Positions 404 through 50,691 of a stretch of DNA of 50,691 nt are shown here, in pieces. Origin of the DNA: an uncultured Clostridia bacterium. GTDB taxonomy: Bacteria; Bacillota; Clostridia; Oscillospirales; Acutalibacteraceae. Numbering within the stretch: the stretch's first letter is position 1; every line of letters begins with the position of its first letter. The position numbers and the translations under genes were made by a program. The stretch lies in assembly GCA_947589485.1 (NCBI GenBank), contig CANQBK010000004.1, positions 1-50,691 on the forward strand, in the 5' to 3' direction. Under the pieces are notes generated by a model, which saw only the letters and a program-made list of their open reading frames with translations, ran no database searches and was not told the DNA's origin.

Positions 404-432
404 TTGATTTTTTCGGGAAGATGGCATATAAT
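404..432 (+). promoter_or_regulatory. Strong sigma-A promoter of the antitoxin RNA
   Basis: TTGATT (404-409), 17-bp spacer, TATAAT (427-432); transcription should begin near 439. It sits about 55 nt upstream of the first antitoxin repeat, the arrangement expected for a type III toxin-antitoxin locus in which the RNA is made in excess. Confidence 0.75.
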
Positions 433-493
433 GTTGATAGAGATATAATAAGTTTTATCTCTAAGTATGGAATTGTATGATTCCATAAAAAGT

Positions 494-592
494 GGTGAGT
501 CCTACCATATAAGTGGAAGTTGTACAAGAGGTGAGTCCTACCGTATAAGTGGAAGTTGTACAAGAGGTGAGTCCTACCGTATAAGTGGAAGC
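494..592 (+). repeat. 36-bp direct tandem repeat array (2.75 copies)
   Basis: Copies at 494-529, 530-565 and 566-592, head to tail with no spacers. Copies 1 and 2 differ by one base (CCATAT versus CCGTAT); copy 3 diverges after AAGTGGAAG. Absence of spacers rules out CRISPR; period and position fit a type III antitoxin. Confidence 0.95.
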
Positions 593-603
593 TATTGTTT
601 GTG

Positions 604-635
604 AAGGGGCTGTGTGGATTGCACGGTCCCTTTTT
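604..635 (+). terminator. Terminator between antitoxin repeats and toxin gene
   Basis: An 11-bp stem (604-614 with 622-632, including G-T pairs), 7-nt loop, then a T run at 631-635. ToxIN loci characteristically have a leaky terminator here so that antitoxin RNA exceeds toxin mRNA; toxin is then made by readthrough. Confidence 0.8.
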
Positions 636-664
636 AAATTTAGGCAAGGAGGAATATAAAAGCA

Positions 665-1417
665 GTGGAACAGCCAAGATTAAAATTATATACCATAGAT
701 ATGAAGTATATTCGAGATTTATCCAATGTAGATAGAAATGTGATGTCAGTTTCTCCTCAAATCGATAAATCGTCGAGACCTTTTGTTGGAATACTTATTC
801 TTATAAACCAAAGGAAATACTGTATTCCTTTGACATCACCTAAAGCCAAATTTGAAGGAAGAAAGAATTCGGTTGATTTTATAAAAATATTACATCCAAC
901 AGAAAAAAACGAACATGGAGCAAACAAAGTAATTGGTGCGCTCAACTTAAACAATATGATTCCTGTTGAAGATTCATTACTCACACCCATTGATCTGAAT
1001 AGCCATTCATCTGATAATAGAAGCACAATACTGTACAAGCAGTTAATGAAAGATCAGCTGAATTGGTGTCAATCCAATCACGAAATTATCTTGAAGAGAG
1101 CAAACCAGCTATATAACCTTGTATCTAATCATCCGGAAAAGAATAGAAATCTTGTGAAAAGATGCTGTAATTTCAAAAAATTAGAAACTGCTTTGGATAG
1201 ATACATCGAGAAACACTTTCCTGTTGTCAGCAGAACAGCACACTCATCGTTACCATCAAAGCCACGGGAGTATGTTCCAAAGGAGAATCCAAAAAAACCG
1301 TTCTATATTGGACGAAAAGCAATCCTCGGTCATAAGCCTTCCTCCAAACAGCAAGAGCCTGCAAAAAGCCAAGAGAGAAACAAACATAATCACCGCAACA
1401 ATAATAACTTAGAATAG
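665..1417 (+). CDS. toxN: ToxN/AbiQ-family type III toxin, endoribonuclease
   Basis: 250 aa, recognised as the ToxN_toxin family: N-terminal LKLYTIDMKYIRDL, SRPFVGILI (res 37-45), PLTSPK (55-60), LNLNNMIPV (about 101-109), a LYKQL helix and CNF...L near 160-167. The Thr-Ser-Pro-Lys at 57-60 aligns with the active-site T52-S53-P54-K55 region of ToxN, and R38 with the basic residue before the PxxG strand. Members cut AU-rich mRNA and the antitoxin precursor, and act in phage abortive infection or plasmid maintenance. The start is GTG at 665 (AAGGAGG at 646-652, long 12-nt spacing), because the conserved LYTI precedes the first ATG. The fold should end near residue 182; a roughly 65-residue Lys/Pro/Ser/Asn/His-rich tail follows, unusual since relatives are about 170 aa. 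Transcription comes from the antitoxin promoter through the leaky terminator. Confidence 0.93.
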   Translation: MEQPRLKLYTIDMKYIRDLSNVDRNVMSVSPQIDKSSRPFVGILILINQRKYCIPLTSPKAKFEGRKNSVDFIKILHPTEKNEHGANKVIGALNLNNMIPVEDSLLTPIDLNSHSSDNRSTILYKQLMKDQLNWCQSNHEIILKRANQLYNLVSNHPEKNRNLVKRCCNFKKLETALDRYIEKHFPVVSRTAHSSLPSKPREYVPKENPKKPFYIGRKAILGHKPSSKQQEPAKSQERNKHNHRNNNNLE

Positions 1418-1520
1418 CCGTCAGACATTCTCAGAAGCCCTCTAACGACTTTTAGAAGAGCAAATGATTTAAAGTGTCGAATGACAGCAAAACCACCTTA
1501 TAGACGATTTTAGAGTACAA

Positions 1521-1550
1521 AAACAGCCGCCCGAAATGGGCGGCTGTTTT
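1521..1550. terminator. Bidirectional terminator
   Basis: A 12-bp GC-rich stem (1521-1532/1538-1549) with a 5-nt loop, A-run on one side and T-run on the other. It lies between toxN and the convergent leftward operon ending at 1552. Confidence 0.9.
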
Positions 1551-1551
1551 G

Positions 1552-1977
1552 TTATGTTCCGTAAAGCGTTGGTCTGAGCATTTCTTCTGCTCTGCTTCTG
1601 TTGTTACGCTCCAGTGCTTCGTATTTATACATATCTCCGAGTTTGAGGGCAAGCTCCATTTCCTTATCAGTCTTGCAAAGCTCTTCTGTTTGATTTTTGA
1701 CAGCTTTGTTATACTTTCTGACCTTTCTTATTACATATCGATACAGACAACAGTCATCTAAGAGCCTCTGAAGATGTTCCGGAGAATTATACATTAGATG
1801 ATTAACCAACATTGCTTCGTCCATAATCAGCGTTCTTTCTCCGTACCAGTGATGTCTTTTGTCCCAATAGTAGTACCTGTACATTTTTTGATCTGGTTCG
1901 TTGATACATTCTTCTATGTAGCAGAACGCAAGGCTTGGATTTGCTTTCGTTTTACTGAAAACTTTATTGTTTGCCAT
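1552..1977 (-). CDS. Hypothetical protein of mobile element (possibly TnpV-like)
   Basis: 141 aa, soluble, charged. An aromatic N-terminal half (YRYYYWDKRHHWYG) is followed by long helices with many Lys/Glu. The C-terminus (RAEEMLRPTLYG) faintly recalls the RAEEI..EL.Y ending of TnpV-type small transposon proteins, but the match is too short to assign. Last gene of the leftward operon, overlapping the upstream secreted-protein gene by 14 nt and followed at once by a strong terminator. Function unknown. Confidence 0.7.
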   Translation of the reverse strand: MANNKVFSKTKANPSLAFCYIEECINEPDQKMYRYYYWDKRHHWYGERTLIMDEAMLVNHLMYNSPEHLQRLLDDCCLYRYVIRKVRKYNKAVKNQTEELCKTDKEMELALKLGDMYKYEALERNNRSRAEEMLRPTLYGT

Positions 1978-2928: not shown

Positions 2929-3110
2929 AATTTTACTATAGAACTTATTTGTTCTTTGTCGAATTTTGTCGAATATTTTTTAATGTCACTATAAATTTTT
3001 ATTTTTTATAGTTTTGAAAAATACATTTCAAGCGCATTTTCTATTATAGAACTTATTTGTTTTTTGTCGACGTTGGTCAAATACTTTTCAAAAATGTTAC
3101 TATTGATTTT
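2929..3110. repeat. Imperfect direct repeat duplicating the 3' end of parB
   Basis: About 75 bp at 2929-3003 is a diverged copy of 3038-3110. Both contain TATAGAACTTATTTGTT followed by a TTTGTCGA-type sequence and TTACTAT/TCACTAT-like ends. The right copy encodes the ParB C-terminus; the left copy lies just after the parB stop and no longer reads as protein. Confidence 0.8.
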
Positions 3111-3908
3111 TACTGATTTTGTAGACGTCTCTTTCTCTTTTTCTGATAGCAAATCGTTAAATGATTTATTTTCATCGTTTGCCGTTTTTCTTATTTCCTT
3201 GGCTAATTTTTCACTGATTTTTTTAATCATTCCACCAGAAGAAGTATCTGTATTTAATTTTGCAATTTTTTCTTGCTCGTTTTCAGAAAGGTATGACAAC
3301 TCAACGGCAGCCCTTATTGACAATTCTCTTCTATCGACCCACGCTTTTATTCCGTCATTTAATTTATCCACACGCAACAGTCTGGCTACTGTATTCCTAC
3401 TCAGACCATACTCGGCTCCGACTTCTTCCCTTGAATTATGCTTTTGTTTCGGTTGCCCTTCAAGCTCTAAAAGTTCATTAATAATATCATTTCGTTTACC
3501 TTGCGAAAATACACTCTCGTAACGAAGTGCAAGGACACGAGCTTGTTCTGAAATTTTTAATTCATTAAATCCTCTTTGCAAAAGATTACTTTCAATAACG
3601 TATATCTCTGCTTCTTCGTCTGTAAGACCTTCCTTGATGATAGCCGGCACGGTTTCACGTCCGGCTATTTTTGAAGCATTCCAACGATTATGACCGATCA
3701 AGATTTCGTACTTTTCGCCGTTCATTACAGGCTGTACAACAATCGGTGTCATTACTCCGTTGGTCTTTATGCTCTCGACCATATCGTCAAGCCGCTCACC
3801 CTGATAAAGGGTGAACTGATGATTATGGTATGGAACAAGCATATCAACAGGTATCTGCTTAATCTGGTTTTCCTGCGACATCATAGCACCAAAGTTAAAT
3901 TCTGTCAT
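3006..3908 (-). CDS. parB: ParB/Spo0J-family partition protein
   Basis: 300 aa. ParB/Sulfiredoxin-type N-terminal domain (about 14-115) with GHNRW at 72-76 and the ESNLLQR box at 106-112, then a helix-turn-helix region (EYGLSRNTVARLLRV, about 166-180) and a Lys/Glu-rich C-terminal dimerisation tail. ParB proteins bind centromere-like sites and load as CTP-dependent clamps; with ParA they segregate plasmids or mobile elements. It lies downstream of parA in the same operon with three small genes between. Its ATG overlaps the stop of the small Cys-rich gene by 4 nt (ATGA), implying coupled translation. Confidence 0.93.
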   Translation of the reverse strand: MTEFNFGAMMSQENQIKQIPVDMLVPYHNHQFTLYQGERLDDMVESIKTNGVMTPIVVQPVMNGEKYEILIGHNRWNASKIAGRETVPAIIKEGLTDEEAEIYVIESNLLQRGFNELKISEQARVLALRYESVFSQGKRNDIINELLELEGQPKQKHNSREEVGAEYGLSRNTVARLLRVDKLNDGIKAWVDRRELSIRAAVELSYLSENEQEKIAKLNTDTSSGGMIKKISEKLAKEIRKTANDENKSFNDLLSEKEKETSTKSVKINSNIFEKYLTNVDKKQISSIIENALEMYFSKL

Positions 3909-4840: not shown

Positions 4841-5638
4841 TTACTCCATACGGTGTAATAGCTCGCAGGAAATGGCTCTATATTCCTCTCCAAGGCGATT
4901 TTTATACAAACATAAACTCCTATGCTTGTTTGTACTTTCTGTGGCTTCTGTGGCTCTGTGGATAACTGTATTGAATAACTTGTCGGTATATGTTTCTTTC
5001 AGTTTCTCAATGACACGTTTGCTTGCATTAGTATGATCAACCATTGTCGGCAGGACACCAATCAACTTCAGGTCGGGTTTCAACGTAGATTTGACTTGTT
5101 CAAATATGCTGTTCAGCATTCCTAAACCGTCAAAAGCAAATTTTTGTGACTGAACGGGTATTATTATGCCGTTGCTCGCAACAAGTGCATTCATCAGCAA
5201 AACGCCGAGAGAGGGCAGACAGTCTATAATTACGAAATCGTAACCTGACAGTAGTTCCTCACTAAGCATACGCTTCAATACGGTTTCCCTCGACAATGCT
5301 CCGGCAAGGTAGCAATCGGCATTAGCAAGGTTTATGTCGGAGGGGATGTAGTCAATGTCATTCAGCTCATTGTGTCTTATGTATTCATTGACATTTGCAA
5401 GCTTCTTACCCTGACCGATAGCAGCCATCATTAAATGGCTGATTGTCGGTAGCTCATCAACCGGATCGCCCTCATCATCATCAGTAAATCCAAGATAAGT
5501 CGAAAGATTAGCCTGTGGGTCAAGGTCAATCAGAAGTACACGCTTTCCCTCAAGTCTGAGTCCGACTCCTACATTCATTGCTGTGGTAGTCTTTCCGACT
5601 CCGCCCTTTTGGTTTGCTATTGATATTATTTTGCACAT
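4841..5638 (-). CDS. parA: ParA-family partition ATPase
   Basis: 265 aa with a deviant Walker A KGGVGKTT at 11-18, LLIDLDPQANLS (motif A', about 35-46) and a Walker B DFVIIDCLPSLGVL near 135. These are hallmarks of the ParA/Soj/MinD ATPases that bind DNA non-specifically when ATP-bound and drive segregation with ParB. It lacks the N-terminal HTH of type Ia ParA, so it is a Soj-like (Ib) type. RBS AGGAGG lies just upstream (AAGGAGGAATTTATA before ATG at 5638). The cognate parB is in the same operon. The gene suggests a phase of autonomous existence or strict stability control for the element. Confidence 0.95.
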   Translation of the reverse strand: MCKIISIANQKGGVGKTTTAMNVGVGLRLEGKRVLLIDLDPQANLSTYLGFTDDDEGDPVDELPTISHLMMAAIGQGKKLANVNEYIRHNELNDIDYIPSDINLANADCYLAGALSRETVLKRMLSEELLSGYDFVIIDCLPSLGVLLMNALVASNGIIIPVQSQKFAFDGLGMLNSIFEQVKSTLKPDLKLIGVLPTMVDHTNASKRVIEKLKETYTDKLFNTVIHRATEATESTNKHRSLCLYKNRLGEEYRAISCELLHRME

Positions 5639-5702: not shown

Positions 5703-6077
5703 TCAAAATGGATCTGTCGGTTCGTAGGCTTCTATTGCCGCCTTTGCCATATTAAGCATTTTTATAACAGTTGTTTTTTCTTTGAGAGCTACTTCATTTG
5801 GATAATCCGTAGGATACACTGTATCGTCATCGGTTACAATAACCGCACAGCGTATTCCGCTCAGCTCACTGTAATTAATCTCCGTATCGTCTGTTGCTCT
5901 ACCTATAACGGTAATTTTGTCACCGTTATGTATCTTACCTGAAACGATATTGTTAAGACTTCCTATACATTCCACTGTTATTTTTCTGCCTATCTCCGGT
6001 ATAAGTGTAAAAATACACTTGCCGTCTTTCGTTATACGAATGTTTTGACATTTACCGATTCGATTTGCATTGTTCAT
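5703..6077 (-). CDS. Hypothetical protein, possibly OB-fold
   Basis: 124 aa. The middle (RKITVECIGSLNNIVSGKI then HNGDKITVIGRATDD) has the beta-strand rhythm and GDKITVIGRA turn seen in OB-fold/SSB-like proteins, but this is a weak impression. An acidic, helix-forming C-terminus follows. ATG at 6077 overlaps the stop of the leucine-rich-repeat gene by 4 nt. Its RBS AAAGGATG is also the RBS sequence of that upstream gene (see the finding at 6074-7603). Confidence 0.6.
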   Translation of the reverse strand: MNNANRIGKCQNIRITKDGKCIFTLIPEIGRKITVECIGSLNNIVSGKIHNGDKITVIGRATDDTEINYSELSGIRCAVIVTDDDTVYPTDYPNEVALKEKTTVIKMLNMAKAAIEAYEPTDPF

Positions 6078-7561
6078 TTTAAAAACATCCTTTCAATTAT
6101 ACTGTTGGGAATGGTTACGCTTGTAAGTCCTGTGCAACCGGCAAACGCACCAATGCCTATTGATGTAACACTATCGGGTATCGTATAAGAACCTTTAAAA
6201 CCTTTTGGGCAATATATCAATTCCTTTTGTCCCTTATCAAAAAGTACTCCGTTATTGCTACTGTAATATTTATTATCCGTACTTACATTGATACTTGTCA
6301 GTCCTTTGCAACCATCAAACGCATACCTACCTATCTCCGTAACACTGTCGGGAATGGTTATGCTTGTCAGTCCTGTGCAGTCCTCAAACGCAAAATTACT
6401 TATTGATGTAACACTGTCGGGGATTGTTACGTTTGTCAATCCTGTGCAGTCGGAAAACGCACTTTTGCCTATTAATGTAACACCATCGGGGATTGTTACA
6501 CTTGTCAGTCCTGTGCAGCCATAAAAAGCATATTCACCTATTGATGTAACAGACTTACCGTCAATTTCAGACGGAATAACAACATCTCCGCCGTTTCCGG
6601 TATAACCTGTTATCGTTACACTGCCGTCCTCATTTTCCTCCCACTCGTAATCATTGGCTGTTTCAACATCTATTGCAGTAAAAGTAATTTCGTTTTCATT
6701 TGCATAAGTTTCGGCATAGCTGTTTTTGTAGCCGTGAATGGTAATATTATCACATCCGTAAAACGCACTCCTGCCTATATCCGTAACACTGTCGGGTATT
6801 GTTACGCTTGTCAGTCCTGTGCAATTGTAAAACGCCAAACTGCTTATTGATGTAACGCTGTCGGGTATCGTTACGTCTGTCAATCCTGTGCAATTGTAAA
6901 ACGCCAAACTGCTTATTGATGTAACGCTGTCGGGTATCGTTACGTCTGTCAGTCCTGTGCAGCCGAAAAACGCCTTATAGTCTATATCGGTAACACTATC
7001 GGGTATGGTATAGGTACCTTTCTTACCTACGGGATATTTGATTAAAACAGATTTATCTTTGTTAAATAAAACACCATCTTCGGATGTGTAGCATTCGTTA
7101 TTTTTATCAACACTTATTGCTGTAAGTCCTGTGCAGCCTGAAAACGTATCACCACCTATTGATGTAACACCTTTTCCTATTGTTACACTTGTAAGTCCTG
7201 CGCAATCGGCAAACGAACAATCTCCTATTGATGTAACACTTTCGGGAATGGTTACGCTTGTAAGTTCTGTGCAGTCCTCAAACGCAAAATTACTTATTGA
7301 TGTAACACTGTCGGGAATTGTTACGTTTGTCAATCCTGTGCAGTCGGAAAACGCACTTTTGCCTATTAATGTAACACCATCGGGGATTGTTACACTTGTC
7401 AGTCCTGTGCAGCCATAAAAAGCATATTCACCTATTGATGTAACAGACTTACCGTCAATTTCAGACGGAATAACAACATCCCCGCCGTTTCCAGTATAAT
7501 CTGTAATTGTTACACTGTCTTTGGATGTTGTTATCCCTCTAAGAAAGTTCATTTCTAACAT
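6074..7561 (-). CDS. BspA-like leucine-rich repeat protein (TpLRR/LRR_5)
   Basis: About 495 aa from ATG 7561 (509 from 7603). It has about 16 repeats of the 23-residue LRR_5 type, consensus AF.GCTGLTSVTIPDSVT.IG, in two blocks separated by a loop (NSYAETYANENEITFTAID). Such proteins are usually surface adhesins, but here neither signal peptide nor anchor is visible, and the chain ends abruptly with NSIIERMFLK. I prefer the start at 7561: the promoter at 7609-7638 would begin transcription at about 7602, past the upstream ATG at 7603, and AAAGGATG is well placed before 7561. The two blocks share a near-identical 240-bp segment. First gene of the leftward par operon. Confidence 0.85.
   Translation of the reverse strand: MLEMNFLRGITTSKDSVTITDYTGNGGDVVIPSEIDGKSVTSIGEYAFYGCTGLTSVTIPDGVTLIGKSAFSDCTGLTNVTIPDSVTSISNFAFEDCTELTSVTIPESVTSIGDCSFADCAGLTSVTIGKGVTSIGGDTFSGCTGLTAISVDKNNECYTSEDGVLFNKDKSVLIKYPVGKKGTYTIPDSVTDIDYKAFFGCTGLTDVTIPDSVTSISSLAFYNCTGLTDVTIPDSVTSISSLAFYNCTGLTSVTIPDSVTDIGRSAFYGCDNITIHGYKNSYAETYANENEITFTAIDVETANDYEWEENEDGSVTITGYTGNGGDVVIPSEIDGKSVTSIGEYAFYGCTGLTSVTIPDGVTLIGKSAFSDCTGLTNVTIPDSVTSISNFAFEDCTGLTSITIPDSVTEIGRYAFDGCKGLTSINVSTDNKYYSSNNGVLFDKGQKELIYCPKGFKGSYTIPDSVTSIGIGAFAGCTGLTSVTIPNSIIERMFLK
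6373..6612. repeat. 240-bp near-identical internal repeat (copy 1 of 2)
   Basis: Copies at 6373-6612 and 7267-7506 differ at only a few bases over about 240 bp, and encode the same run of LRR units starting YTGNGGDVVIPSEIDGKS. Divergence elsewhere in the gene is much higher, so this is a recent duplication or gene conversion within the leucine-rich-repeat gene. Confidence 0.85.
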
Positions 7562-7586
7562 TTTTAAAAAACATCCTTTCAATTTA

Positions 7587-7849
7587 ATATTTGCATTTGA
7601 CATAAGTAATTATATAATATAGTGGTACTATTTGTCAATACCCTTATTAAAATTTTTTGTTGACTTATTAAGTCTATTGGAATAAAATCAATTTTGTTAG
7701 GACTTTCTATAATTTCTTGTTATCATTATCTACTTAAAACATTTTTCGGTTTATATTTGCATTTGATATAAAATAGTGGTACCATTTATCAATGCCCTTA
7801 CTAAAATTTTTTGTTGACTTATTAAGTTTGTTGGAATGAAATCAATTTT
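7587..7849. repeat. Duplicated promoter-region repeat (7587-7694 and 7753-7849)
   Basis: About 100 bp is present twice as direct copies. Shared landmarks are TTTGCATTTGA, ATAGTGGTAC, ATTTTTTGTTGACTTATTAAG and TTGGAAT.AAATCAATTTT. The left copy has about 10 extra bases that build the TATAAT box of the leftward promoter. The right copy provides the TTGACT box upstream of the rightward zinc-ribbon gene. No gene is seen in 7604-7867. Confidence 0.85.
7609..7638 (-). promoter_or_regulatory. Promoter of the leftward LRR-par operon
   Basis: Read leftward: TTGACA (7638-7633), 18-bp spacer, TATAAT (7614-7609). Start of transcription is expected near 7602. The spacer includes AGTACCACT, close to a GGTACC palindrome seen in the second copy, a possible operator. 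Confidence 0.7.
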
Positions 7850-8311: not shown

Positions 8312-9685
8312 TTATTCCAACACACCATTGTTTTTTTGATGAATTTTATCAATATTTTTTAAATATTCGTTTAGAGAGTTTCTTGAAAATTCAATCTCTT
8401 TTAGTTCAGCAACAATTTCCTTATAGGTTTCGTTTAATTCTGTTCTTTGTGTTATCAGAGCAGTTCGCTCTCGCTCTAAAGATTCAATATTGGGTAGTTT
8501 CTTGTTCGGATAAAGAACCATCAAATTCTTAACAACGCTTTCGTATTTATCTATTGCGGAAGCGTTTTCTTTTTTGTATTTTTTACTCATACCACTCTGC
8601 CGGTAACCGTCATAGACAGGCTTATATTTTTTATATGCTCTCAGCAGCTTGATACGGTCTGAAAGATCGTCAATCTGACCTTGTGTTTTATTCAGCTGAG
8701 TAACGATAATCATACGGTTGTTGTAGGTAGAGGTTGCTCTGCTTTCAAGCTCCTGTTCGCTGTGGATTTGGTGAGTTGACAGAAAGTTTATCAGTCTGGA
8801 AACTTCCTGCATATTTTTTATTTCAGCCCAGTTAAGCAGTCCTTTAGAAGTTTGAAAAATTTCATTTGACGTGTCAATAATTTTTGTATGAACATTCCGA
8901 CCGCTTATTCCTGTTTTAAGGAAAATATATTGCTCGATTCTTTTTCTTATTTGCGGTTCGTCATAGTACCAACCAAGAGTCTTTCCTCGTGTAAATCTTT
9001 CTTGATTCGGCATACGAAATTTTATTTTTATAACATTTTGGGGAGTATAAACGCACTCGATGTTTTTTGACCGAATTTTTTCCAAAAAATCATCAAAATT
9101 ATTACTCTCCATTATCACTTCATCAATAACACTACGAAGTTTTGATTTCCACGATTTCCCCAGTAAATCTTGTTGCCATTCATAATAACATTTGCCTTTG
9201 CTCTTTTGAGGATTTTCTATTACAGATAATCCGTGTTCTCTGCATATTTCGTCACTAATATTTCTTAAATTCTCCCACGATTTTCCACCGCGATTTTCTG
9301 TATATTCAAAAGTTTTTAAATCCTCAAAACTGACATTATTAAAAATGATATGGTTATGAATATTATTATTGTTTATGTGAGTGGCAATGATATACTGAAA
9401 TTTTCCTTTTAAAAATCTTTTTGCAAGTTTCTCTCCGATTTTTATTGCCAGTTCCGGTGTAACTTCTTTCCCCTTAAAAGATTGATAAATGTGCTGTGCA
9501 AGAACCGTTCCTTTACCACTGCCACAGGAACGAATTGTTAAAAATTCATTTGCTGCTTTTTGAAAATCCTCCGAGCAGTTATAACTACTAACGTACAATC
9601 CTTTTTCGGTTTTATCAGGATTCATAATATAAGCTATTGCTTTAGAGAGAGTAGTACGGATTGGATGGATGTTAGTGACTGCCAT
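8312..9685 (-). CDS. mobA: MOBP-type relaxase (Relaxase/Mobilisation nuclease)
   Basis: 457 aa. Relaxase domain in the first 200 residues with SKAIAYIMNPDKT (14-26), AQHIYQSFKG (63-72) and the metal-binding histidine motif HINNNNIHNHIIFN (H103, H110, H112). These enzymes nick the element at oriT and lead the strand into a recipient. The C-terminal half is helical and charged, as in MobA/MobL proteins of Firmicutes mobilizable elements. No type IV secretion or coupling-protein genes lie in the window, so the element is probably mobilised in trans. The start at 9685 overlaps the end of mobC by about 50 nt, a usual mobC-mobA layout. Confidence 0.92.
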   Translation of the reverse strand: MAVTNIHPIRTTLSKAIAYIMNPDKTEKGLYVSSYNCSEDFQKAANEFLTIRSCGSGKGTVLAQHIYQSFKGKEVTPELAIKIGEKLAKRFLKGKFQYIIATHINNNNIHNHIIFNNVSFEDLKTFEYTENRGGKSWENLRNISDEICREHGLSVIENPQKSKGKCYYEWQQDLLGKSWKSKLRSVIDEVIMESNNFDDFLEKIRSKNIECVYTPQNVIKIKFRMPNQERFTRGKTLGWYYDEPQIRKRIEQYIFLKTGISGRNVHTKIIDTSNEIFQTSKGLLNWAEIKNMQEVSRLINFLSTHQIHSEQELESRATSTYNNRMIIVTQLNKTQGQIDDLSDRIKLLRAYKKYKPVYDGYRQSGMSKKYKKENASAIDKYESVVKNLMVLYPNKKLPNIESLERERTALITQRTELNETYKEIVAELKEIEFSRNSLNEYLKNIDKIHQKNNGVLE

Positions 9686-9978
9686 ATCTCGTTTAGCACC
9701 TCTTTTAGATAATTAAAATCATCTTCATACATTCGGCTCGTTGTATTCACTCTAATTGCCATTTGATTTATGTTTTTCTGTATGCCTACAAGCGATTTCC
9801 GCAATTTTTTTAAGTCCTGATTTTCATAATTTACAATTACTCCTGTAATTGCCATTTTTCGAAGATAGGCACCTATTGATTTACTGTCCGAAAGTTTTGC
9901 TTTTTTTATAATAAAAATTTTTTCTTCCTCCGTAACACGGAACGTTATTTTTAAATTACGTCTATTTTCATCTTTCAT
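9634..9978 (-). CDS. mobC: MobC-like relaxosome accessory protein
   Basis: 114 aa from ATG 9978 (125 from the upstream ATG at 10011). The nearer ATG has AAAGGAAT at proper spacing, so I chose it. N-terminal ribbon-helix-helix (NLKITFRVTEEEKIFIIKKA), then SIGAYLRKMAITG and helices NQMAIRVNTTSRMYEDDFN, the MobC pattern. MobC binds near oriT and helps open DNA for the relaxase. Overlaps mobA and lies just downstream of the palindromic oriT-like region. Confidence 0.88.
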   Translation of the reverse strand: MKDENRRNLKITFRVTEEEKIFIIKKAKLSDSKSIGAYLRKMAITGVIVNYENQDLKKLRKSLVGIQKNINQMAIRVNTTSRMYEDDFNYLKEVLNEIWQSLTSIQSVLLSLKQ

Positions 9979-10099
9979 ATTTACATTCCTTTCTGCTTCA
10001 CTAAAACGCATAAATTTGTGAGTTAGGTTAAACTTACTTGCTGAGTTTCTGTAATGACTGATAGTCTAAAACGGTTATTAATTAGATGGAAATTTTTCT

Positions 10100-10904: not shown

Positions 10905-11029
10905 GTTAATAGAGAGTTTATTCTCTCTATATGCGTTATTTTGCTAAATCAATTGCATTTTGGTGTGAAGTATGGTATCGTGAAAGAAACTGAATTCCAT
11001 TATTTGCCTGTTTGTGGAAAGGAGAAAAA

Positions 11030-12643
11030 ATGGAAATACAAACAGGACGTTACAAAATCACTGCCCTTTATGCACGTTTGTCGGCTGACGACGAGTTGCA
11101 AGGCGACAGCAATAGCATAATCCATCAAAAACAAATTCTTGAAGAATTTGCAGCTAACAATGGTTTAGGCAATTGTCAATTTTACGTTGACGACGGCTGG
11201 ACTGGAACAAATTTTGACAGACCCAATTTTCAACGTTTGGTTACTGATATAGAAAATCAAATAGTTGATACGGTAATTGTCAAAGATTTATCTCGATTAG
11301 GAAGAAACTATTATCAGGTTGGATATTATACTGAAAAATTTTTTTTGGAACACAACATTCGATTTATCTCGATAACCGATAATGTTGACAGTATCAATGG
11401 TACGAATGAATTCGCACCATTTCATAACTTGATAAATGACTTCTATGCAAAAGATATAGCGAAAAAACAAAAGGCTGTGATTGAGAGCAAAGGTAACGCA
11501 GGACAACGATTGACTACGAGGGCAATTTTCGGCTATAAAAAGGACGAAAACGGTCAATGGATTATCGATGAAGAAGCTGCTTCGGTTGTCAAAAAAATTT
11601 TTGACTTATGTTCGAGTGGAAAAGGTGTTCAGCAAATTGCAAATTATCTTTTTGCGAACAAAATTAAAAATCCAACAGCATACAAAGGCAAAGTCAAAGA
11701 GGGAAGCGTTGCAGAACGCAATCCGTATCTTTGGTCAGCACAAACAGTTTCGCAAATTCTGAGCAAACAGGAATACTGCGGTGACACTGTTAATTTCCGT
11801 TATCGCAAGAAGGGACTGTGCAGCAAAATCATTGTCAAGAACAGTCCCGAAGATATAAAGATTTTTGAGGACACACACGAAGCAATTATTAGCAGAGAAC
11901 TATTCGGTAAGGTACAGCAAATTAGAAGTAAAAAACGTCGAAGAGCAGCTATTGAAAAGCCTGTACTTTTCGAGGAGATTTACTGCTCGGATTGTGGTAG
12001 CAGAATGTTAATTATACGTTCAAGAAACTATCATCCGGCATCATACGTTTGCTCTACATACAGAAAGGCTCTGGTGGTTAAAGAACATTCTTGTACATCG
12101 CACTATATATCAGAGAAGGTACTTGCAAAAATTGTTTTAGAATTGATTAATCAGCTTTTACTTTTTGCACGAAAAAGTCCTACAATTTTCCGACAGACTG
12201 TCACATCCGAATTTACCAAACAAAATGGACTTTCACAAGCAAAGCTAAAAAAAGAAATCTTGATTGCTCAGAAAAGAACAACCGAGATCAATAAGATAAT
12301 CAAGGAATTATATGAGGACAAGGTGAAAGGTAATATTTCTCTTGAGATATTCCAAAAGCTCTCTTCCGCATATGGTTTGGAACAAAATGCTATTAATGCA
12401 AAAATTTTAGACGACAAAAAGAAAATTGCTGAACTCGGTAAAACGAGAGAAGCTCTGAAGGGATTTCTTGATGTAGTAGAAAATTATTGTGAAAATGGCG
12501 AAATACAAGAACTTACAAAAGATATTGTAGAAGATTTTATCGACCACATCGTAATTGACCAAGAAAAAAAGGCTGACGGAAAACGTCAACCTAAAATCTA
12601 CTTCAAAGGGATTGGCTTATTAAGTGACAATGTGCTACGCTAA
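11030..12643 (+). CDS. Large serine recombinase (TnpX/TndX-type integrase)
   Basis: 537 aa from ATG 11030 (AAAGGAG six bases upstream; an ATG at 11012 lacks an RBS). Serine-recombinase catalytic domain with LYARLS (catalytic Ser18), VDDGWTGTNFDRPNF, and VKDLSRLGRNYYQVG at about 86-100. Then a recombinase domain (IFGYKKDENGQW... to about 260), a zinc beta-ribbon (CSDCGSRM ... VCSTY, HSC; about 322-366), a coiled coil rich in Lys/Glu (about 405-480) and a short C-terminal domain. Such enzymes integrate and excise mobile elements between short att sites without host factors. Position near the right end of the element fits its role as integrase. Confidence 0.95.
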   Translation: MEIQTGRYKITALYARLSADDELQGDSNSIIHQKQILEEFAANNGLGNCQFYVDDGWTGTNFDRPNFQRLVTDIENQIVDTVIVKDLSRLGRNYYQVGYYTEKFFLEHNIRFISITDNVDSINGTNEFAPFHNLINDFYAKDIAKKQKAVIESKGNAGQRLTTRAIFGYKKDENGQWIIDEEAASVVKKIFDLCSSGKGVQQIANYLFANKIKNPTAYKGKVKEGSVAERNPYLWSAQTVSQILSKQEYCGDTVNFRYRKKGLCSKIIVKNSPEDIKIFEDTHEAIISRELFGKVQQIRSKKRRRAAIEKPVLFEEIYCSDCGSRMLIIRSRNYHPASYVCSTYRKALVVKEHSCTSHYISEKVLAKIVLELINQLLLFARKSPTIFRQTVTSEFTKQNGLSQAKLKKEILIAQKRTTEINKIIKELYEDKVKGNISLEIFQKLSSAYGLEQNAINAKILDDKKKIAELGKTREALKGFLDVVENYCENGEIQELTKDIVEDFIDHIVIDQEKKADGKRQPKIYFKGIGLLSDNVLR

Positions 12644-12662
12644 AACAACAAACACTAAAGAT

Positions 12663-34740: not shown

Positions 34741-35375
34741 TTTATAAAATAAAAGTTAAGGGCTCCGGCGCAGTTAAGGGCGCTGCCCTTAAAACCCGCC
34801 AAAGGCTCCGCCTTTGGAATCCGCAAGCCTTTGAAAAGGCTTGACCGAAACTTTTGACTATGGGTACATAAACTTATTGCGCGCGAACGTAGTTTTGGTT
34901 TGCAGTAAGAGCGAACGGAGTGAGCGATAACGCGAATCGCCTGCGCCGGCTCGGCGCCGCCAAAGGCTCCGCCTTTGGAATCCGCAAGCCTTTGAAAAGG
35001 CTTGAGCGAAACTTTTAATTATGGATATATAAACTAACGCCGCGCGATGGCACTTTTTGTTTGCAGTAAGAGCGAGCGGAGCGAGCGACAACGCGAATTG
35101 AGAGCGCAGGCACTGCGCCGAAACTTTTAACTATGGTACATAAACTTATTGCGCGCGAACGTAGTTTTGGCTTGCAGTAAGAGCGAACGGAGTGAGCGAT
35201 AACGCGAATCGCCCGCGCAGGCACTGCGCCGCGAATTGCCGGTGCCGGCTCGGCACCGCGCGAACGTAGTTTTGGCTTGCAGTAAGAGCGAGCGGAGCGA
35301 GCGATAACGCGAATCGACAGTGCGGGCACCGCACCGCGTGTTGCCTGCGCCGGCTCGGCGCCGCCGGGTTTTACA
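34741..35375. repeat. Nested dispersed GC-rich repeats (four module copies)
   Basis: Four partial copies of one module: an AAGCCTTTGAAAAGGCTT hairpin arm, GAAACTTTTAACTATGG..ATAAACT, GCGCGAACGTAGTTTTGG, TTGCAGTAAGAGCGA(A/G)CGGAG, ATAACGCGAATCG, then a GC palindrome such as CCGGCTCGGCGCCG. Starts near 34790, 34960, 35120 and 35258. Open frames through it are artefacts of the repeat. The same module recurs at 50394-50691 in the opposite orientation, with a small piece at 42666-42715. The remaining 35376-35596 is AT-rich with no gene. Confidence 0.9.
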
Positions 35376-50393: not shown

Positions 50394-50691
50394 GGCTCGG
50401 CGCCGAGCCTGCGCTGTCAATTCGCGGCGCCGAGCCGGCGCGGGCGATTCGCGAAGTCGTTCGCTCCGCTCACTCGTACTGAAAACCATAGGTACATTCG
50501 CGCGGCGTTAGTTATTTTAACCATAATTAAAAGTTTCGGTCAAGGCGCAGTGCCTGCGCCCTCAATTCGCGTTATCGCTCACTCCGTTCGCTCTTACTGC
50601 AAACGATGAGTACGTTCGCGCGGCGTTAGTTATTTTAACCATAATTAAAAGTTTCGGTCAAGCCTTTTCAAAGGCTTGCGGATTCCAAAGG
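50394..50691. repeat. Dispersed GC-rich repeat block at the right edge
   Basis: Begins with a 16-bp perfect palindrome GGCTCGGCGCCGAGCC (50394-50409), then two module copies (about 50420-50565 and 50566-50691), in reverse orientation to 34741-35375: CGTTCGCTCCGCTCACTCGT, GCGCGGCGTTAGTTATTTTA, ACCATAATTAAAAGTTTCGG, AAGCCTTTTCAAAGGCTT. Continues beyond the window. No gene in it. Confidence 0.9.

Follow-up and report, generated by a model that had tools for sequence, protein, structure and literature searches.

A complete type III ToxIN locus, the probable cargo of a mobilizable element, and toxin-free ToxI arrays in related genomes

The window analysed here, a stretch of 50,691 bases that forms the beginning of contig C4, contains at positions 404–1,417 what is by its sequence a complete type III toxin–antitoxin locus of the ToxIN kind, as a preliminary description had correctly read it. 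The order of its parts is a promoter, two leader hairpins, three ToxI pseudoknot cores, a terminator and a ToxN gene, and the same layout is repeated in relatives of the locus. It is very probably a functional toxin–antitoxin pair that an integrative mobilizable element carries as cargo. The locus itself is an ordinary, well-formed member of the known ToxIN family. The surprise lies in related genomes, where ToxI arrays of several specificities are stacked in banks that contain no toxin.

Architecture of the ToxIN locus

The promoter, TTGATT-17-TATAAT, occupies positions 398–432 of the plus strand (hexamers at 404–409 and 427–432). Sites of this pattern are no commoner than in shuffled sequence (5 found against a mean of 4.7); the call, already made in the preliminary description, is independently supported because the sequence is nearly that of three promoters in the sibling element L093: 398–432 is 91% identical to L093 17088–17054 and 16873–16839, both of which lie ahead of ToxI arrays, and 97% identical to L093 19207–19173, the promoter of a third RNA, the PBECR4 RNA.

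Two leader hairpins ahead of the first unit, here and in relatives, are new around the locus. Both come from the fold of 438–492 (z −4.8). H1 (438–463, plus strand) is near the expected 5′ end of the transcript, and its place is taken in relatives by hairpins of differing sequence. H2 (466–487, plus strand) directly precedes the first ToxI unit. Across 15 leaders from 14 loci (13 distinct; L006 and L008, with a longer H2, omitted), the H2 arms are 98.1% paired, against a shuffled mean of 92.2 and a maximum of 96.2 in 2,000 shuffles, a percentage that is partly circular given that the leaders were chosen from folds. The evidence is the number of double changes, 8 against a shuffled mean of 2.3 and a maximum of 7. 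By eye, L009, L013, L018, L039 and L040 have no such leader.

The intrinsic terminator described earlier between antitoxin and toxin was recovered by pattern at 603–633 (plus strand), and 598–640 folds at z −6.1; terminator-like sites number 2 against a shuffle mean of 1.0. A terminator pattern is also present downstream of toxN (1,520–1,550, plus strand).

ToxI units and their pseudoknots

The repeats of about 36 bp reported head to tail were found again by TRF at 490–591 (period 36, 2.8 copies, 96% matches). The accompanying statement that only two full antitoxin units are present is a count of the DNA period, and has to be revised: there are three complete pseudoknot cores. On the plus strand, unit 1 spans 489–524 (positions −3 to 32 in ToxI numbering; core 493–517) and unit 2 spans 525–560 (core 529–553), both from TRF, the sequence-only model R1 and pseudoknot pairs, with boundaries set by analogy; unit 3 (561–596; core 565–589, complete) was delimited by sequence and alignment. 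R1 returns three units with E values of 2.7e-10, 1e-9 and 6.3e-9, which speak for unit number and order only, the window units being in its seed. Nor is the array short of repeats, as its comparison with the 5.5 of the Pectobacterium system had implied: 2.8 is the usual number, judging by ToxI-Bt (34 nt × 2.9) and antiQ (35 nt × 2.8) in the available text of PMC5086642. Internal junctions read UA|CAAG, a sequence absent from the 3′ overhang of unit 3 alone. With three full cores and a last end of this kind, two units should therefore be freed as exact 36-mers, at cleavage sites placed by analogy.

In silico, the units are predicted to fold as H-type pseudoknots in which GGU pairs with ACC (stem 1) and UCC with GGA (stem 2). 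Units of this kind, here called type A, were collected as 53 regular-expression matches, in which single stem letters were constrained, though not jointly, and 5 matches from near-identical sister loci (L007, L011 and L071) were dropped. The resulting 48 rows (44 distinct) pair in 93.2% of cells, a level attained by 0 of 500 shuffles (mean 86.2). Covariation scores 0.280, compared with 0.145 in shuffles, again with 0 of 500 as high and slid versions at most 0.069; both values are to be read knowing that an alignment of related sequences may outscore all of its shuffles. Of the five covariation measures, two lie within the shuffled range: both-side changes (3, shuffled mean 2.8) and further pair types (5, shuffled mean 6.8). 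The outer pair of stem 1 is broken in 20 of 44 type A units, window units 2 and 3 among them, and stem 2 carries a change from U-A to C-G in 17 of 44, which matches the compensatory change U9C/A25G given for pseudo-ToxI in the portion of PMC3475682 consulted. A related unit, type B, occurs in L003, L004, L020, L021 and L093, once in L018, and in toxin-free arrays. Its 19 rows (27 matches, 8 terminal units omitted) are 97.7% paired against 91.1 in shuffles, with covariation of 0.222 against 0.096 (0 of 500; largest slid value 0.100) and further pair types not above shuffles (4 against 4.3).

Among the type A loci read, three units are the commonest state (the window, L002, L005, L006, L007, L009, L013, L019, L036, L037, L039, L170 and L171). 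Two are found in L008 and L040 and one in L010/L011, L012, L014 and L055, and in L018 a hybrid array (1,288–1,440), with a type B unit ahead of three of type A, precedes a single ToxN. A search of the window's own genome for a second ToxIN or type A array, which among the unit types covered type A, found none. A covariance search did not extend the earlier ToxI assignment: the array scores below the gathering threshold of every Rfam 15 family, and relaxing the limit to E ≤ 10 over 300–1,500 gives five matches, each falling well short of its own family's threshold. Candidate structured RNAs, possibly ToxI, are reported upstream of ToxN in Clostridiales in the available text of PMC8040213.

A set of ToxN relatives, 43–46% identical, lacks a tandem repeat and has just one ToxI core, placed shortly after the −10 box (L010:1962–2100, L012:2869–2990, L014:2883–3000, L055, L056 and L022). 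Folds place a further hairpin between core and terminator in most of them.

The ToxN toxin and known relatives

The toxN gene (665–1,417, plus strand) starts with GTG behind the ribosome-binding site AGGAGG (647–652, plus strand) and encodes a predicted endoribonuclease of 250 residues. Its placement in the ToxN/AbiQ family, as first proposed, holds against PF13958 (157.2 bits, E 5e-46, cut-off 25), against PADLOC, in which AbiQ is the sole match at E ≤ 1 (127 bits), and in phmmer, which finds four ToxN/AbiQ chains of the PDB (E 6.6e-13 to 3.6e-7); no NCBIfam family matches at E ≤ 1e-3. Of the type III families ToxIN, CptIN and TenpIN, it is ToxIN that the 36-nt unit fits. The LTSPK motif was also rightly placed at the active site: it aligns with LTSPK of chain 2xd0, and R38, T57, S58 and K60 fall at positions K33, T52, S53 and K55, listed as active-site residues (K/R at 33) in the accessible part of PMC8860590. 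In 14 aligned proteins, the window's included, R38 and K60 never vary, 13 retain S58, and position 57 is T or S in 12 (G in L005, D in L009).

Among known systems, chain 2xd0, which we take to be ToxIN-Pa of Pectobacterium atrosepticum, shares with the window the promoter–array–terminator–toxN order, 36-nt units, the LTSPK active site and a pseudoknot with a U9–A25 pair ending stem 2. It differs in having 5.5 repeats rather than 2.8, and the window ToxN is a protein of 250 residues with a tail; the literature surveyed, as far as its text was available, makes no mention of two leader hairpins for ToxIN-Pa. Chains 4ato, 7d8o and 4glk, presumably ToxIN-Bt, ToxIN-Ec and AbiQ, belong to the same toxin family, with 2.8–2.9 repeats in Bt and antiQ, but are distant in sequence (phmmer E 5e-12 to 4e-7). 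The ToxN/AbiQ chains of the PDB have 171–194 residues and no tail of this length, and the tail accounts for the extra length of the window protein. E. coli and Lactococcus plasmid ToxN are 30.5–34.7% identical to it. On the Sutcliffiella horikoshii plasmid NZ_CP020881, the array is 80.5% identical over window positions 486–589 and an annotated ToxN/AbiQ adjoins, whereas the toxin is just 34.5% identical. The classification paper for type III systems is reportedly Blower 2012. A phage origin was considered and rejected: viral contigs hold no relative of ToxN and no exact match to three unit patterns; among phage records there are 2 distant ToxN, and nothing there matches the array.

The last 64 or so residues of ToxN (amino acids 187–250; 1,223–1,414, plus strand) form a basic, hydrophilic tail common to other proteins of the element family. 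It is found in frame at the C-terminus of the L093 ToxN (68% identity), of the L093 PBECR4 nuclease (42%) and of a diverged ToxN in G1032 (48%), and in weaker form (17–25%) at the end of large proteins, those of L092 and L126 being SNF2-helicases by Pfam. A profile of 5 tails gives matches in 10 of 64 genus genomes at E ≤ 0.1, although those in G1052 and G1053 are all above 0.01 and not convincing. In the window's own genome, a first tail search gave one weak match (E 0.17), and the profile points to the C-terminus of a 2,718-residue open frame on contig C6. Tail-like sequence is also present in L135, L136 and L142 (presence only).

The mobile element and its cargo slot

The mobile-element setting proposed earlier is supported by a relaxase, a serine recombinase and ParA/ParB to the right of ToxIN, with the same gene set in siblings. 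The contig starts within the element, so that the left end of the latter is missing. Next to the locus is orf141 (1,552–1,977, minus strand), a conserved frame that borders a variable cargo slot; L092, L093, L172 and L173 also have it at the slot, as does L126 with 34% identity. It is followed on the minus strand by a 308-residue element protein with a hydrophobic C-terminal stretch (1,964–2,890; from the ORF and siblings), ParB (3,006–3,908; PF02195), ParA (4,841–5,638; PF13614), a relaxase of the MobA/VirD2 type (8,312–9,685; PF03432) and a probable mobilization accessory protein (9,634–10,011; NCBIfam MbpA/MobA matches below cut-off). A large serine recombinase (11,012–12,643, plus strand; PF00239/PF07508) marks the right end, where homology to siblings stops at about 12,645–12,657. 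Integrase and relaxase are thus present and the mobilization protein is a weak match, in what is the right part of the element only, with its ORFs partly searched for T4SS genes. The same gene set, whole or in part, occurs in L091, L092, L093, L094, L172 and L173 of the same genus and in L126 of another.

The content of the slot beside orf141 varies. It is ToxIN with type A units in the window, an SNF2-helicase frame with a macro-domain protein in L092, ToxIN with type B units directly before ToxN in L093, and ToxIN with type C units directly before ToxN in L172 and L173. As read from these slots, ToxIN is one of several interchangeable toxin cargos of the element family.

Toxin-free ToxI arrays in related genomes

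The genus was searched with R1, a sequence-only model, under stricter filters; the assemblies are fragmented, and the genome counts refer to type A only. Type A units are present in 6 of 64 genus genomes. A ToxN follows the array in three (the window, G1045 and G1083) and none lies beside it in the other three (G121, G1049 and G1067). PF13958 is matched in 11 of the 64 genomes at E ≤ 0.01. G121 has no match to it at E ≤ 1; in each of G1049 and G1067 there is a single match, located on a contig other than that of the array and preceded by units of another type. In the same family, R1 matched 10 of 300 genomes: ToxN is beside the array in G000, G185 and G192; in G121, G016 and G236 the whole genome is free of PF13958 matches at E ≤ 1; in G113 a lone unit is accompanied by what looks by eye like the beginning of a broken toxin; and the matches in G046, G204 and G284 are weak (E 0.004–0.006) and without PF13958.

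Two of the three genus genomes without an adjoining ToxN hold banks. The G1049 bank (L168:8222–9175), between an Smr-domain gene and phoU, consists of type B × 2.8, type C × 3.0 and type A × 1.9, each array behind a TTGATT-17-TATAAT promoter; terminators match the pattern after B and C and were seen after A by eye only. In the G121 bank (L124:190–1040, minus strand) the order is B, A, C rather than B, C, A, with B × 2.4, two type A units recognised by R1, and C × 3.8. The promoter pattern is present ahead of B and A, not C, and the terminator pattern is found at C only; the contig continues for about 190 bases past that terminator, and no start of a ToxN gene is seen there. G1067 has a toxin-free array at L169:4040–4290, with no ToxN beside it. 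Two toxin-free arrays also directly follow complete ToxIN loci in L005 (1,590–2,240) and L007 (3,640–4,090), one a CCC/GGG variant of type A with a leader, the other type B. As types A, C and B each stand before ToxN in the element family, the banks therefore hold its three toxin-linked specificities. In type B units without a toxin the stems remain paired, stem 2 being UCC/GGA, CUC/GAG or CCA/UGG, and compensatory changes of this kind speak for retention of the toxin-free units over decay.

The literature on toxin-free type III antitoxins, as far as its text was available, reports no bacterial toxin-free ToxI array, though published cases, and published arrays of one unit, may be missed; PMC12654330, in the part consulted, counts orphan type III toxins and names orphan antitoxins of types I, II, IV and VIII only. 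The closest parallel is pseudo-ToxI of phage PhiTE, a set of toxin-free ToxI-like repeats which, once expanded, suppresses ToxN-mediated abortive infection (PMC3475682, available text). It is phage-borne, with 1.5 repeats that expand under selection, whereas the banks are bacterial and multi-unit, with several specificities and their own promoters. The type II anti-addiction loci ccdAB-Ech and ataRT are alike in that a resident antitoxin can disarm the toxin of an incoming element (PMC10305079, in part), and antitoxin genes without a toxin, among them solitary protein antitoxins, are described as common (PMC3874152 and PMC12654330, both in part). The loci of these last two groups encode protein antitoxins, and the available text describes no toxin-less RNA antitoxin of type III among them.

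Further arrays were noted in passing. L093:16950–17400 and L172:7100–7250, both on the minus strand, contain a toxin-free type C unit and type E arrays upstream of complete ToxIN, type E being TTAGTGCTCACCACT...GAAGACTG and by eye like the units before a ToxN-like gene of L034. In G016 (L105/L125), one apparent transcript combines two type A units with a further pair of a different kind. In G236 (L103/L126), a leader and one unit are followed by a gene without a Pfam match and then by an AbiEii-like gene.

Mechanism and role

By inference from characterised systems, the array would be transcribed in excess, ToxN would cut the precursor at unit junctions, the pseudoknots would plug the ToxN active sites in a closed complex, and occasional read-through of the terminator would yield toxin. 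On loss of the element, or when a phage shuts off transcription, the RNA would decay first, leaving ToxN to cleave cellular or phage RNA. The likeliest role on the present sequence data is maintenance of the element (addiction), given the position of the locus in a variable cargo slot on a mobilizable element and the toxin-free arrays of sister hosts; phage defence is a possible second role. A locus devoted mainly to phage defence by abortive infection, and not to addiction, we hold to be rather unlikely. ToxIN-Pa and AbiQ do abort phage infection, and PADLOC files the window protein as AbiQ, but ToxIN-Bt showed no anti-phage activity in its host (for all three systems, the available text of PMC5086642), the surrounding element is mobilizable and brings its own ParA/ParB, and the arrays without toxin in sister hosts fit a toxin directed against a host or rival element. 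It is far less probable still that the locus looks complete while its toxin or array is inactive. Several ToxN-like places in related genomes do contain stops or are fragments, and unit 3 has a divergent 3′ end. That end is, however, also present in relatives, and the window has an open frame, conserved active-site positions, a ribosome-binding site, a terminator and near-identical units; between the window and L093, the ToxN core has a dN of 0.34 against a dS of about 2.0, the latter near saturation.

For the banks, the plain alternative is decay, in which the antitoxin is what was left behind. Against it stand the maintained stem pairs, the arrays' own promoters and their tandem stacking with no toxin remnants in between. 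The banks may be RNA anti-addiction loci, or leftovers, and they suggest that hosts or rival elements keep antidotes. The DNA of the ToxN tail is 81% identical between the window and L093, against 64% for the core, and the homology runs past it through intergenic DNA into orf141; exchange through this segment is therefore the simplest explanation, and the tail would be a captured or exchanged 3′ end. Were it instead a functional module, such as a C-terminal export or localisation signal, ToxN might act partly in the recipient during transfer. Its in-frame position at the end of three diverged ToxN and the PBECR4 nuclease, its weaker occurrence in helicases and its basic, hydrophilic character would suit such a role, as would polyvalent proteins of phages and conjugative elements, thought to enter a new host with the DNA (PMC5512222, in part). 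A recombination scar explains the identity pattern, however; in L093 a fragment of orf141 comes after a second copy of the tail, the helicase matches are low, and 13 other aligned ToxN relatives lack the tail. We consider a module improbable and retain exchange through the tail–orf141 segment. More tentatively, at least three interchangeable ToxIN specificities (A, B and C) in the slot, together with the banks, could amount to multivalent RNA immunity, with the banks disarming elements as they arrive, combined with toxin turnover by tail–orf141 exchange, a joint reading that we think possible rather than probable. If true, toxin-free arrays that match the toxins in circulation would do as RNA what anti-addiction antitoxins do as proteins. 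The open question of why type III toxins ride mobile elements, and how hosts answer, becomes testable, and for work on specificity the element family supplies a naturally occurring set of ToxN proteins, along with ToxI units that match them or do not.

Other observations

On the minus strand of L093 (18,942–19,500), a PBECR4 nuclease gene (PF18813) lies behind a ToxI-like promoter, a structured RNA, a terminator and a ribosome-binding site, which is a type III layout in which toxin and RNA are both different; upstream the RNA occurs once more, this time without a toxin. Within the window, strong inverted repeats were seen by eye just left of the locus (150–300), and TRF reports GC-rich tandem repeats with GAGCGAGCG or GGCGCCGAGCCGGCGCGGGC-type motifs at 34,796–35,364 and 50,398–50,453. 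Finally, a gene of 69-bp repeats within the mobile element (6,074–7,603) encodes repeats like 'VTIPDSVTSIG..AF.GCTGLT'.
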